From contig JASGCM010000002.1 in assembly GCA_030054175.1 (NCBI GenBank), forward strand, positions 1 to 64,000: a stretch of 64,000 bases of DNA. The letters are read 5' to 3'. Below, piece by piece: positions 28,120 through 34,700 of this stretch; the stretch's first letter is position 1, and the number at the start of each line of letters is the position of its first letter. The notes beneath the pieces were generated by a model. That model ran no database searches and was not told the DNA's origin. It saw only the letters and a list, made by a program, of their open reading frames with translations. This DNA comes from Alphaproteobacteria bacterium (GTDB taxonomy: Bacteria; Pseudomonadota; Gammaproteobacteria; Burkholderiales; Burkholderiaceae_C). A program made the translations under genes and the position numbers.

Positions 28120-29589
28120 ATGGGTGCATTTGACGATTTTCATCGCCGCTCGATTCAAGACCGCGAGGCCTTTTGGTCTGAACAATCCCAACTGATTGAG
28201 TGGAAGCAGCCCCCTCAACAGGTCTGCGACTACAGCAATCCGCCGTTTGCCAAATGGTTTGTGGGTGGTACCCACCAATTTGTGCCACAACGCGGTGGAT
28301 CGGCACTTGAGCGACCGAGCCCAACAAAACGCGCTGATCTTTGTCTCGACCGAAACCGATCAAGAGGTCGTCTACACCTTTGCCCAATTGCACGCCGAAG
28401 TCCAGCGCATGGCAGCCATTTTGTTGGATCTGGGCGTCAAAAAAGGCGATCGGGTGCTGATTTACATGCCGATGATTTCCGAGGCTTGCTTTGCCATGCT
28501 GGCTTGTGCGCGCATTGGCGCCATCCATTCGGTGGTTTTTGGTGGCTTTGCATCGCACTCTTTGGCCACCCGCATCGATGACGCCACGCCCCACGCCATC
28601 ATCAGTGCGGATGCCGGTTCTCGCGGCGGCAAGGGCGTGGTGCCCTATAAACCTTTGCTCGACGAGGCGATTTCGTTGGCCCACCACAAGCCTGCGGCGG
28701 TGCTCATGGTTGATCGCAAGTTGGCGGATGATGTCCCCGTGGCGGGCCGTGACCACGACTACGCCACCCTGCGTGCCAAGCACTTGAACACCCAGGTGCC
28801 TTGCGAGTGGGTTGAATCAACCCACCCCAGTTACACCCTTTACACATCGGGCACCACCGGCAAGCCCAAAGGCGTGCATCGGGATACCGGCGGTTATGCC
28901 GTTGCATTGGCCGCCAGCATGAAGCACATTTATGGCGGCAACCCCGGTGAGACTTTCTTTTCGACCAGTGACATCGGTTGGGTCGTCGGCCACCTGGTTG
29001 TTTGCAGACAGTTTGGGGCGATGACCAGCGTTTTGTCAAAACCTACTGGTCCAGCGTTCCCGGTCAAATGGTCTACAGCACATTCGACTGGGCCATCCGA
29101 GACGAAGATGGGTACTATTTCATCTTGGGCCGCACCGATGATGTCATTAACGTGGCTGGCCACCGCTTGGGTGCTCGCGAGATCGAAGAGAGCATCTCCA
29201 GTCACCCGAACGTCGCAGAAGTGGCCGTTGTGGGCGTGGCCGACCCACTCAAAGGACAGGTGGTCATGGCGTTTGCCATCGCCAAAGACACCAGTGGCTT
29301 GACCGACCCCGCTGCCCGCTTGAAACTGGAGGGGCAGGTGATGAAACTGGTCGACAGCCAGCTGGGCGCTGTTGCCCGACCCGGACGCGTGTTTTTTGTC
29401 ACCGCCTTGCCCAAAACACGCAGCGGCAAACTGCTGCGCCGAGCCATCCAGGCAGTATGCGAAAAACGCGACGCTGGAGACCTGACCACCATGGAAGACC
29501 CGGCGGCTCTGCAACAAATCCTGGACCCGTTGGGTCGTCGCTTTGTACTTTCAGATACAGAAGAGGTTCATCCTGAAAGGTCAGGGTAA
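28120..29589 (+). pseudogene. Propionyl-CoA synthetase (prpE-like), broken by frameshift and deletion
   Basis: Remnant of an AMP-forming acyl-CoA synthetase of the PrpE type. Part 1 (FDDFHRRSIQDREAFW to FAKWFVGGT) is in one frame. One extra C in the CCC at 28271-28273 shifts the match to the next frame (TNLCHNAVDRHL onward). That part includes the P-loop YTSGTTGKPKG and ends at SDIGWVVGH. Near 28990 the match jumps to PPGCLQTVWGDDQRFVKTYW in a third frame, so about 150 codons holding the core adenylation motifs are missing. The C-terminal domain, with the lysine motif TRSGKLLRRA, remains. The ATG keeps a GGAG site. The last codons overlap the convergent lipoprotein gene by 9 bp. No active enzyme can be made. 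Confidence 0.9.
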
Positions 29590-30332
29590 ATTCGCCAACG
29601 GGTTAAAACCGAACCTGCTGTTAAAGGCTGACGCATCATAAAGCTCTGCGTTCAAACAATCATAGGGGCAATCGTTGGATTCGACGATCTGCCATCTATT
29701 TGCGATCTGTACCACGCCAAACACTTTTCCGTTGCCATCAACGGGAATCACCCAGCCATCGGCAGAACCGGGGTAACTTGTGCCACCGACAAAGGTCTTG
29801 ATAAACGACAACGGGTCAAAACGGTATTTTTCTCTAAATTCTGGAAGATAGTCTGGAATAGGGTTGGTGAAAACAGTTATGTCCCAGCAACCTAACCAGC
29901 GCTCGTCCGTGGCGGTGGAGACGCAATCGTTGGATACGATATAACGCCACTGCCCATCGATCTTTGCCACCCCTTGCCACACGGGATTGGCGCTGATGTC
30001 GGTAAACATCCAGCCTTGGTAAGTTGGTTCAAAGAAATTGCCCCACCCAAACTTCTGGGGCTCCCATTTGGGAATTTGAAAAGTGACCGCTGCAACTGCT
30101 GGCAGACTCGGATCGGTACCGCTGCCGAGGGCGGACACAGTCAAATGTGGGGTGACAGCAGCTCCCGCCAGCGGGCTCGAACCACCTCCACCGCAGGCTT
30201 GAAGCAACACTGTTGTCGTTAAAATCAAAAGTACTTTTTTCATGAGATTCTCCTGTAGAACCAATTTTCGAAATCCACTGCCCGAACAACTTGTCAAACC
30301 CATAACATAACGGGGCCACTGCAAGGTGCGGG
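29479..30332. repeat. Direct repeat copy 1 (854 bp)
   Basis: An 854-base block, by eye identical to the block 1090 bases further on. It contains the last codons of the prpE remnant and the whole lipoprotein gene with its ribosome site and about 90 bases upstream. Sequence beyond both ends is still related to the other copy but diverged, so the boundaries of identity are sharp. Confidence 0.93.
29581..30243 (-). CDS. Unrecognised lipoprotein with internal repeat, copy 1
   Basis: A 220-residue predicted lipoprotein whose function I do not recognise. It has a short signal peptide with lipobox LLQAC (Cys17), then a Gly/Ser/Ala-rich linker to about residue 50. The mature domain has an internal duplication: GW...W.YIVSNDC (77-107) then a second Cys (119) and FREKYRFDPL (136-145); and GW...RWQIVESNDC (163-192) then Cys196 and FNSRFGFNPL (207-216). 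Paired Cys in each half suggest two disulfides. The ATG has AGGAG 7 bases upstream; a longer frame adds 27 residues without a signal. Position next to a wrecked gene and AT-rich DNA suggests acquired material. It is identical to copy 2. Confidence 0.85.
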   Translation of the reverse strand: MKKVLLILTTTVLLQACGGGGSSPLAGAAVTPHLTVSALGSGTDPSLPAVAAVTFQIPKWEPQKFGWGNFFEPTYQGWMFTDISANPVWQGVAKIDGQWRYIVSNDCVSTATDERWLGCWDITVFTNPIPDYLPEFREKYRFDPLSFIKTFVGGTSYPGSADGWVIPVDGNGKVFGVVQIANRWQIVESNDCPYDCLNAELYDASAFNSRFGFNPLANLP

Positions 30333-30504
30333 CTGTTTGAAGGCCAGGGAAATAACCACAGCCGACTCCAAACTTCTTCCAATAAGTTCTGATTTCTTGA
30401 TTGTAATATGAAAATATTAATTTATACAGTAATATTTTTTATTTTTTTATGTTTAAAGGGTAAAGTTATCCTGTTCTAATGGTATACAGTGGCCAATGAG
30501 ACCG
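30333..30504. other. Very AT-rich spacer upstream of lipoprotein copy 1
   Basis: No gene is seen. The first 45 bases are about 80% like the corresponding bases after copy 2; similarity is then lost. From about 30380 to 30471 roughly one base in five is G or C, with long A and T runs, in strong contrast to the rest of the window. For the minus-strand lipoprotein gene this lies 135-230 bases upstream, where an UP element or a nucleoid-protein silencing site could sit. Confidence 0.7.
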
Positions 30505-30679
30505 GTGCTTGACCGGCCCCGTTGCCCGCTTGAAACTGGAGGGTCAGGTCATGACACTGAGCACCTGTGACCTGACCACCATGGAAGACCCGGCGGCTCT
30601 GCAACAAATCCTGGACCCGTTGGGTCGTCGCTTTGTACTTTCAGATACAGAAGAGGTTCATCCTGAAAGGTCAGGGTAA
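30505..30679 (+). pseudogene. Second fragment of the prpE 3' end
   Basis: The first 64 bases match prpE codons for DPAARLKLEGQVMKL with about ten substitutions. Exactly 120 bases (40 codons) are then missing relative to the first copy, and from 30569 the sequence is identical to the end of the first remnant. The joined reading frame stays open (VARLKLEGQVMTLSTC then DLTTMEDP), but there is no start and a stop lies just upstream. It is the left flank of repeat copy 2. Confidence 0.8.
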
Positions 30680-31422
30680 ATTCGCCAACGGGTTAAAACC
30701 GAACCTGCTGTTAAAGGCTGACGCATCATAAAGCTCTGCGTTCAAACAATCATAGGGGCAATCGTTGGATTCGACGATCTGCCATCTATTTGCGATCTGT
30801 ACCACGCCAAACACTTTTCCGTTGCCATCAACGGGAATCACCCAGCCATCGGCAGAACCGGGGTAACTTGTGCCACCGACAAAGGTCTTGATAAACGACA
30901 ACGGGTCAAAACGGTATTTTTCTCTAAATTCTGGAAGATAGTCTGGAATAGGGTTGGTGAAAACAGTTATGTCCCAGCAACCTAACCAGCGCTCGTCCGT
31001 GGCGGTGGAGACGCAATCGTTGGATACGATATAACGCCACTGCCCATCGATCTTTGCCACCCCTTGCCACACGGGATTGGCGCTGATGTCGGTAAACATC
31101 CAGCCTTGGTAAGTTGGTTCAAAGAAATTGCCCCACCCAAACTTCTGGGGCTCCCATTTGGGAATTTGAAAAGTGACCGCTGCAACTGCTGGCAGACTCG
31201 GATCGGTACCGCTGCCGAGGGCGGACACAGTCAAATGTGGGGTGACAGCAGCTCCCGCCAGCGGGCTCGAACCACCTCCACCGCAGGCTTGAAGCAACAC
31301 TGTTGTCGTTAAAATCAAAAGTACTTTTTTCATGAGATTCTCCTGTAGAACCAATTTTCGAAATCCACTGCCCGAACAACTTGTCAAACCCATAACATAA
31401 CGGGGCCACTGCAAGGTGCGGG
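30569..31422. repeat. Direct repeat copy 2 (854 bp)
   Basis: Second copy of the block starting at 29479, offset by 1090 bases, with no difference seen. The left edge switches from T (here) versus A (copy 1); the right edge from T versus C. Flanking sequence is homologous but diverged on both sides, which does not fit a simple recent tandem duplication. Confidence 0.93.
30671..31333 (-). CDS. Unrecognised lipoprotein with internal repeat, copy 2
   Basis: Same 220-residue lipoprotein as copy 1, residue for residue, including lipobox Cys17, the two SNDC-containing halves and the ribosome site. The upstream region differs beyond 90 bases, so the two copies could be regulated differently while making the same protein. 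Its 3' end overlaps the second prpE fragment. Keeping two identical genes side by side suggests gene dosage, very recent duplication, or ongoing gene conversion. Confidence 0.85.
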   Translation of the reverse strand: MKKVLLILTTTVLLQACGGGGSSPLAGAAVTPHLTVSALGSGTDPSLPAVAAVTFQIPKWEPQKFGWGNFFEPTYQGWMFTDISANPVWQGVAKIDGQWRYIVSNDCVSTATDERWLGCWDITVFTNPIPDYLPEFREKYRFDPLSFIKTFVGGTSYPGSADGWVIPVDGNGKVFGVVQIANRWQIVESNDCPYDCLNAELYDASAFNSRFGFNPLANLP

Positions 31423-31569
31423 TTGTTTGAGGGCCAGTGAAATGACCACGGCTGAATCCAATCTCCTTTCATCTGGTTGTCATTGGCAAATACTAATCCC
31501 AAAAAATTAATTTGTAAAATTTAATTGTTATTATATTATTAATACAATAGTTCGCGCATGACTCATCCA

Positions 31570-31586
31570 ATCTGAACAATTCAGAT
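31570..31586. promoter_or_regulatory. Perfect 7-bp-arm palindrome upstream of sucA
   Basis: ATCTGAA and TTCAGAT are exact reverse complements separated by CAA. The site could be an operator for sucA or the lipoprotein gene, or a small hairpin. No regulator can be named. Confidence 0.3.
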
Positions 31587-31617
31587 CAAGGGTGGCTCTG
31601 AGCAAACTGTCAGGCCT

Positions 31618-31640
31618 TGGTTGGCTGATCAAACCAACCA
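31618..31640. promoter_or_regulatory. Inverted repeat upstream of sucA
   Basis: TGGTTGG and CCAACCA are perfect complements around a nine-base spacer, about 185 bases before sucA. It could be an operator or a leader hairpin. Confidence 0.3.
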
Positions 31641-31823
31641 CACGCACCCAGTGGCTCAAAAAAATCACGGTCAGTGATCCGTCGGCCTATTGGTGGCACA
31701 ATGACTGATTGACATCAGGCCCTTCCCAGCCACAGTCGCATCCGCCAACCGGTTCAGCCGTGTCGCGGAAGGTTTTTTCAACCCACCCAAGCATCCCTGA
31801 AGGGGATTGCAGGAGAGCGAAAC

Positions 31824-34700
31824 ATGAGTGCTCAGTCGATCTACAAGGCTTACTCGGCGAATACCTATCTCTTTGGGGGCAATGCGCCCTACGTCGAAGA
31901 GATGTACGAAAACTATTTGGCCAACCCGGGCAGCGTGCCTGACACCTGGCGTCAGTACTTCGATGCCCTTCAACACGTGCCTGCCGTCGACGGCAGCAAC
32001 ACGCGCGATGTGCCCCACATGCCGGTGATCAACGCCTTTGCCGAGCGCGCCAAACAAGGTGGCACCAAGGTGGTGATGGCCAATGCCGATGTCGAAATGG
32101 GCCGCAAGCGCACCGCCGTGCAGCAGCTGATCGCCGCCTACCGCAACGTCGGCCAGCGTTGGGCCGATTTGGACCCCCTGCAGCGCACCGAGCGCCCCAA
32201 CATTCCGGAACTCGATCCTTCTTTTTATGGCTTTACCGACGCCGATCAGGAAACCGTGTTCGACACCAGCAACACCTTCTTCGGCAAAGACCGCATGTCT
32301 TTGCGCGAATTGATGAATGCCTTGCGAGAGACTTACTGCGGCACTCTGGGTCCTGAATACATGTACATCACCGACATGGCGCAAAAGCGCTGGTGGCAGC
32401 AAAAGTTGGAGAGCATTCGCAGCAAACCCAATTTCACCGCCGAGAAGAAAAAACACATCCTCGATCGCCTGACAGCGGCCGAGGGTCTCGAGCGCTATTT
32501 GCACACCAAATACGTGGGCCAAAAGCGCTTCTCGCTAGAAGGTGGAGAAAGCTTTATTGCCTCGATGGATGAATTGATCCAGCGCGCCGGCGAGCAGGGC
32601 GTGCAAGAAATCGTGATTGGCATGGCCCACCGTGGTCGATTGAATGTGCTGGTCAACACATTGGGCAAAATGCCCAAAGATTTGTTTGCCGAGTTCGACC
32701 ACACCGCCCCTGAAGAACTGACCGCCGGTGACGTCAAATACCACCAAGGATTCAGTTCTGATGTGTCCACCCCTGGCGGCCCAGTGCACTTGTCGCTGGC
32801 TTTTAACCCTTCGCACCTGGAGATCGTCAATCCGGTGGTGGAGGGCTCGGTGCGTGCTCGCATGGACCGCCGTGATGATCCCAAAGGCAAACAGGTGTTG
32901 CCGGTGTTGGTGCATGGTGATGCCGCTGTCGGTGGCCAGGGCGTGAATCAGGAAACCCTGTGTCTGGCCCAAACCCGTGGGTACTCGACCGGGGGCACCG
33001 TCCACATCATCATCAACAACCAAATTGGTTTCACCACATCGGATCCGCGCGACCTGCGCTCGTCGGCTTTTTGTACCGACATCTTCAAGATGGTTGAAGC
33101 CCCGGTATTGCATGTCAACGGCGACGACCCCGAAGCCGTGGTGTTGGCCAGTCAATTGGCCCTCGAGTTCCGCCAGACCTTTGGTCAAGACGTCGTGGTC
33201 GACATCACCTGCTTTCGCAAGCTGGGTCACAACGAGCAAGACACCCCCAGCCTGACCCAGCCTCTGATGTACAAAAAAATCACATCACACCCAGGCACCC
33301 GTAAGCTGTATGGCGAAAAACTCGCGGCGCAAGGCATTTTGGGCGACTCCGGCCCCGATGACATGGTCAAGTCGTACCGCGCCGCCATGGATGCCGGCAA
33401 GCACACTGTTGATCCGGTGCTCACCAACTTCAAAAGCAAGTACGCCGTCGATTGGGCGCCGTTCCTGGGCAAAAAGTGGACCGACGCCTGTGACACTGCA
33501 CTGCCCATGTCTGAATGGAAACGCCTGGCCGATAAAGTCACGACCTTGCCTGCCAACATCACCCCGCATCAGTTGGTGAAAAAAGTGTACGACGACCGCG
33601 CCGCCATGGGCCGTGGCGATATCAACGTCGACTGGGGCATGGGTGAGCACATGGCCTTTGCTTCCTTGGTGGCCAGTGGCTATCCGATTCGTCTGTCGGG
33701 AGAGGACAGTGGCCGTGGCACCTTCACTCACCGGCATGCCGTCATTCACGACCAAAACCGAGAAAAGTGGGACACTGGCACCTACATTCCGTTGCAAAAT
33801 GTCGCCGACAATCAGGCACCTTTCGTGGTCATCGACTCGATTTTGTCCGAAGAGGCCGTTTTGGCCTACGAATACGGCTATGCATCGAACGACCCCAACA
33901 CACTGGTGATCTGGGAGGCTCAGTTCGGCGACTTCGCCAACGGTGCCCAGGTGGTTATCGACCAATTCATTGCTTCGGGCGAGGTCAAATGGGGTCGGGT
34001 CAATGGCATCAACTTGATGTTGCCTCACGGCTATGAAGGGCAGGGCCCCGAACACAGCTCGGCCCGTGTCGAGCGCTTCATGCAATTGGCCGCTGACACC
34101 AATATGCAGATCGTGCAGCCCACCACGGCCAGCCAGATCTTCCATGTCTTGCGTCGCCAGATGTTGCGCAGCTTGCGCAAACCCTTGATCATCTTCACGC
34201 CGAAGTCTTTGCTGCGCAATAAAGACGCCACCTCGCCAGTGAGCGAATTTGTGCGCGGCAGCTTCCAGACCGTGATTGCCGAGAACCACGAAACCGTCAT
34301 CAAGAAGGCCGACAAAGTCAAGCGCGTGCTGGTTTGCTCGGGCAAGGTGTACTACGACCTGGCCAAGAAACGCGAAGAGAAAGGGCAAGACGATGTTGCC
34401 ATTTTGCGCATTGAACAGATCTACCCCTTCCCGCACAAGGCTTTTGCCGCCGAGCTCAAAAAGTACCCCAATGCCACCGAATTGGTGTGGTGCCAGGACG
34501 AGCCGCAAAACCAGGGTGCTTGGTTCTTCATCCAGCACAATATCCACGAGAACATGCTCGAGGGTCAAAAGCTGGGCTATGCAGGTCGTGCCGCATCGGC
34601 TTCTCCGGCCGTGGGTTATTCACACTTGCACCAGGAGCAGCAAAAGGCGCTGGTTGAAGCGGCTTACGGCAAGCTCAAGGGGTTCATCCTCACCAAATAA
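31824..34700 (+). CDS. sucA: 2-oxoglutarate dehydrogenase E1 component
   Basis: A 958-residue thiamine-diphosphate enzyme of the TCA cycle that decarboxylates 2-oxoglutarate and succinylates the E2 lipoyl arm. The N-terminal E2-binding peptide ([21 protein letters not shown]) is followed by the catalytic regions [27 protein letters not shown] and NNQIGFTT (cofactor site), and the C-terminal transketolase-like part ([15 protein letters not shown]). Length is normal. GGAG precedes the ATG by about 9 bases. It is first of sucA-sucB-lpdA; a long AT-rich region separates it from the duplicated lipoprotein genes. Confidence 0.97.

Follow-up and report, generated by a model that had tools for sequence, protein, structure and literature searches.

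An identical tandem pair of putative lipoprotein genes with diverged flanks, next to a prpE remnant

Identical blocks and diverged flanks

How can two tandem genes be identical base for base when the duplicated DNA on both sides of them has diverged? The window analyzed here is a stretch of 64,000 nucleotides, part of a 190,958-base contig in a genome of 3.10 Mb in 39 contigs. An exact match scan identified a maximal exact match of 854 bp, at an offset of 1090, between positions 29479-30332 (copy 1) and 30569-31422 (copy 2), confirming with 854 of 854 positions the base-for-base identity proposed in the initial annotation. Each block contains a complete minus-strand gene encoding a putative lipoprotein of 220 amino acids (29581-30243 in copy 1 and 30671-31333 in copy 2, identical to each other according to the ORF list, translation and sequence matches), the end of prpE (about 25-55 bp) and noncoding DNA. 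Identity extends beyond the lipoprotein gene by 102 bp on the prpE side and 89 bp upstream, about 190 bp in all, and the synonymous sites of the gene are identical between the copies as well. The two blocks are separated by a spacer of 236 bp (30333-30568) in which right-flank homology is followed by left-flank homology, as expected from a tandem order, with the tandem join placed at about 30450-30491. Searches of the 39 contigs of the genome revealed no third place for the protein of the block or for the spacer.

Diverged homology on both sides of the blocks, likewise claimed from the initial reading of the sequence, is borne out by alignment. On the left, inside prpE and on the plus strand, 29297-29349 aligns without gaps to 30507-30559 with 48 of 53 positions identical and 5 mismatches, and BLAST stretches this match to 29281-29349 and 30492-30559 at 87%. 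The interval between flank and block is 129 nt in copy 1 (29350-29478) and 9 nt in copy 2 (30560-30568). The left flank of copy 2 (30492-30568, plus strand; found by exact match scan, BLAST and alignment) represents a second, truncated prpE tail that is a net 120 bp shorter than its counterpart. On the right, 30333-30379 and 31423-31469 agree at 37 of 47 positions (79%, 10 mismatches), with fainter similarity in AT-rich DNA out to about 30450 and 31539, respectively. Together with their AT-rich stretches, the right flanks occupy 30333-30491 in copy 1 and 31423-31539 in copy 2, as delimited by alignment and shuffles. The G+C content drops to 23-25% in the spacers adjoining the blocks (30350-30449 and 31450-31549), compared with 57.5% in the window.

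The similarity of the left flanks lies above all 500 dinucleotide shuffles. The joint score of the right flanks is 91 while the best of 500 dinucleotide shuffles reached 39; the AT-rich right part by itself scores 41, a value reached by 1 of 500 shuffles. Left of 29281, no homology above shuffles is detected (score 14, matched by 416 of 500). Flank homology on both sides points to a single duplication and not to two insertions. A mobile-element reading was considered and rejected. No inverted repeat of at least 20 nt bounds the unit among the seven pairs found, and none of at least 40 nt is present in the window.

The flanks, which are short samples of 53 (left) and 47 (right) aligned sites, thus differ at 15 of 100 sites and the blocks at none of 854. 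At the flank rate, zero changes over 854 sites would have a log10 probability of about -60. If the 15 mismatches are placed randomly over all 954 aligned sites, the log10 probability that none falls in the block is -15.1. The upper 95% bound of block divergence is 0.35%, versus 15% in the flanks, which, assuming equal rates, suggests that the homogenization falls in about the final 2% of the period since the duplication.

A broken prpE and the prpE-sucA spacer in relatives

The surrounding gene order is lpdA (labeled by eye), a zinc-type oxidoreductase gene, an isochorismatase-domain gene, prpE, the two minus-strand lipoprotein genes and sucA. The closest named matches of sucA are found in Comamonadaceae-type MAGs and isolates, for example Hylemonella, Acidovorax, Curvibacter, Rhodoferax and Limnohabitans, a comparison from which the genome itself was possibly omitted. 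No relative at strain level turned up: among 84 genomes of the genus, the nearest has 82% DNA identity in sucA and lacks this lipoprotein gene.

The prpE gene, encoding propionyl-CoA synthetase, is present as a broken plus-strand remnant at 28120-29530, based on tblastn, comparison with the relative G011 and a domain match. Its frame breaks near 28.27 kb, and the intact 631-residue PrpE of the relative L041 matches it by tblastn in three pieces and two frames. About 0.48 kb is gone near 28.99 kb, where 489 nt in G011 are represented by 8 nt, and an AMP-binding_C domain is found in the last piece. The left flank of the block is the 3' end of this same prpE. The four relatives whose prpE frame was viewed (L041, L050, L101 and L128) all have a full-length frame in the corresponding position. 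Other prpE-like matches in the genome are weak, the best having an E-value of 2.0e-13 over 156 bases, and a second prpE copy is unlikely, a judgement we do not put more strongly because only 6 of 63 candidates were scored.

In a search of 100 loci of relatives for prpE and sucA, both genes are present on one strand in 71 loci, of which 69 are distinct when judged by the initial 600 bases of sucA; the 29 excluded comprise 25 that have sucA and lack a prpE match in the available stretch and 4 without a sucA match. The end of the prpE match and the start of sucA are separated by at most 320 bp in 57 of these 71 loci, by 320-1500 bp in 7 and by more in the other 7. The ancestral arrangement is likely one with prpE ahead of sucA. 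In all 14 relatives compared, the main spacer homology to the window starts at 31677-31736, just before sucA, and these DNA matches define a shared plus-strand sucA leader at 31677-31823. The leader possibly starts at about 31602, where a short extra match (31602-31621) is seen in two of the 14 (L045 and L049, E-values of 0.40 and 0.002). On the other side, the prpE-tail match hits the start of both blocks in 13 of the 14, ending at 29501-29533, while none passed for L057. The two sets of matches indicate that the DNA between the end of prpE and about 31.60-31.69 kb is peculiar to this genome within the set compared.

ORFs were listed in three of the 14 loci with a prpE-sucA spacer longer than 320 bp (L050, L128 and L101), and no lipoprotein of this type is found in their spacers, either by eye or by tblastn at E <= 1. 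Other genes are located between prpE and sucA in all three (L050 6365-8131, L128 9180-9584 and L101 9359-9733), presumably one cytochrome b561-like and two YceI-like genes as well as ArsR-like regulators, as named by eye. Their presence suggests that the prpE-sucA spacer took insertions more than once. Promoter and terminator patterns in 29200-31900 occur at or below the shuffled number.

The two prpE tails carry information on the order of events. Of the five differences in the left flank, three fall at codon position 2 of prpE, and at these sites the base of copy 1 is shared by 62, 54 and 68 of 70 loci from relatives and that of copy 2 by 2, 1 and 1, in a comparison that excludes loci with a gapped or non-spanning tblastn match and in which two pairs are one contig taken twice. 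This pattern suggests that the prpE tail of copy 2 drifted as noncoding DNA and that the duplication is not recent. We infer that the second tail drifted while the first was still held, which would place the duplication before the decay of prpE in this region. The third-position differences favor copy 2, which agrees with 60 of 70 loci at 29340 (9 for copy 1) and with 10 of 70 at 29334 (3 for copy 1), and departures from the relatives' consensus over 29297-29349 are similar in number, with 14 of 53 sites in copy 1 and 16 of 53 in copy 2. The surplus of drift in copy 2 consequently amounts to few sites, and the order in which the events took place is only partly fixed.

In copy 2, the place where about 120 bp are missing falls within a perfect inverted repeat with 10-bp arms (30542-30551 and 30568-30577). 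The repeat is completed by two of the five differences in the left flank, copy 1 having 8 of the 10 positions of the left arm, and a template-switch mutation may be a lead. Two observations speak against it, namely that one of the two completing bases is the usual base of the relatives (60 of 70) and that the folding z-score is just -1.8.

The lipoprotein gene

The N-terminus of the encoded protein, MKKVLLILTTTVLLQAC, as read from the translation, consists of basic residues, a hydrophobic stretch and the lipobox LLQAC. By these N-terminal criteria, which follow the lipobox rule for signal peptidase II lipoproteins, the product is a putative lipoprotein of the signal peptidase II type. An AGGAGA motif ahead of the ATG was identified by eye as the ribosome site, and the protein contains a GGGGSS linker. 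With a start, a ribosome site and a lipobox in both copies, two identical lipoproteins are predicted to be exportable. Self-alignment detects two internal repeats of about 43 residues (GW...SNDC), each ending in SNDC, and scores 62 where the highest of 300 shuffles scores 54. The cut between the halves was optimized over 60 positions for the real sequence only, a procedure that favors it. Duplication thus seemingly acted within the lipoprotein gene as well as on the gene as a whole. The GC3 of the gene is 0.55, versus 0.72 for sucA.

Searches for relatives returned essentially the protein itself. Among 672 candidates in the protein database there is one match, the protein itself, and full-length matches are confined to its own genome in three overlapping sets that each include this genome (1 of 61, 1 of 399 in the family and 1 of 84 in the genus). 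A pattern search of genome contigs yielded 396 stretches and one of viral contigs 118, none of which was confirmed in either case, and no copy was found in plasmids. With tblastn at E <= 1 against 158 loci, matches are limited to loci of the own genome and to 38 residues of the N-terminal signal-linker part in L148 (E = 0.002). Pfam contains no family for the protein up to E = 10, and the best NCBIfam score is 11.9 bits compared with a cut-off of 45. Three candidates at E <= 0.001 (G003, G198 and G257) were rejected as relatives, their matches spanning the signal peptide and linker only, and a PDB match to a collagen IV fusion (E = 0.033) was taken as chance. Single-sequence structure prediction of the protein is poor, with a mean pLDDT of 39.8. 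Among the genomes and databases searched, sequence comparison identifies the gene as a new orphan.

Duplication, drift and homogenization

The reading that we consider probable is an insertion followed by an old tandem duplication, drift of the flanks and a recent homogenization of the core, either by gene conversion or by a double unequal crossover with the same effect. Judging from the arrangement in relatives, the lipoprotein gene would have been inserted between prpE and sucA. A unit that starts within the 3' portion of prpE, includes the lipoprotein gene and ends in AT-rich DNA was then duplicated in tandem, as shown by the homology on both sides, after which the flanks would have diverged and about 120 bp would have been lost from the second prpE tail. 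Recently, homologous recombination between the copies may have written one 854-bp core over the other. Gene conversion and two successive unequal crossovers would give the same product, and either copy may have served as the donor. One edge of the proposed tract coincides with the 120-bp gap, which would be expected where heteroduplex meets a large heterology.

The most serious competitor is an artifact of assembly, in which the tandem copies differ in reality and a short-read assembler merged them into one consensus that was laid down twice. Assemblers merge bubbles between near-identical copies, the block exceeds short-read length, and the assembly is a draft of 39 contigs for which 4.91% contamination is listed. 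This explanation is nevertheless improbable, although it keeps a real share of our doubt: the 236-bp spacer lies in tandem order and nowhere else in the genome as a whole, so that the tandem pair is likely real under any reading, and merging would need copies far closer to each other than the 15% seen in the flanks. Strong homogenization would consequently have taken place even if the assembler had flattened the remaining differences.

Beyond a single event of homogenization, repeated conversion might maintain a lineage-specific lipoprotein in two identical tandem copies, with dosage or a shared partner demanding their identity. The locus would then represent an early stage of concerted evolution in an orphan that arose or was acquired next to a decaying prpE, an idea that we regard as speculative and unlikely.

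We find it slightly harder still to credit a mosaic transfer, in which a donor with a recent tandem duplication gave block, spacer and block to a one-copy strain. The spacer would be of donor and the outer flanks of host origin, so that their divergence would reflect that between strains and not the age of the duplication. One recombination could yield the order host left flank, block, donor spacer, block and host right flank, and this would also fit identical blocks with diverged flanks. The inner prpE tail, however, carries second-position changes against nearly all of the 70 loci as well as the 120-bp loss, which calls for time spent as noncoding DNA or for a donor with a broken prpE of its own. 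In addition, the gene is present in no other of the 84 genus genomes, so neither a donor nor a single-copy host is in sight.

Two further explanations are hardly credible. A simple tandem duplication of the entire unit at a recent date accounts for identical blocks in head-to-tail order but, as the initial annotation had argued, misfits the flanks, which differ at 15 of 100 aligned sites and lack 120 bp in one copy, compared with 0 of 854 in the blocks, and is contradicted unless the flank differences are sequencing errors. Purifying selection holding two old protein copies identical without recombination is in keeping with two open genes that both have a start, ribosome site and lipobox, yet protein-level selection alone is insufficient to explain identity at synonymous sites, over the 102 bp on the prpE side and over the 89 bp upstream. 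Of the two possibilities originally proposed for this locus, an older duplication with a recently homogenized middle is hence the best supported, whereas selection for two identical lipoproteins is not sufficient, given the identity at synonymous sites and outside the gene.

With an old duplication and a recent homogenization, one sequence would date two events, the former by its drifted flanks and the latter by its identical core. The locus also cautions that identical tandem genes need not mean a recent duplication.

Duplicated genes of bacteria are known to evolve in concert through gene conversion, among them tufA/tufB, amoCAB, psbA and others (PMC6053082). As in the bacterial cases described there, where the likeness is attributed mainly to gene conversion, the paralogues in one genome are alike at synonymous and non-synonymous sites. 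Those systems concern conserved genes in many species over long times, while the present pair is an orphan with one event in one genome; and in contrast to those cases, diverged flanks here argue against a fresh duplication. An extended identical stretch between diverged borders is also what programs such as GENECONV take as the mark of interlocus gene conversion tracts (PMC3924818). Mean conversion tracts given in that review range from 10 to some hundred bp in yeast, rodent and human data, with minimum lengths in yeast of about 500 bp and a single estimate of more than 1 kb (PMC3924818). A tract of 854 bp is among the long ones by this standard, and several events that overlap could also account for it. 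The pair is a new example, in an orphan gene, of a known type of event, the homogenization of duplicates.
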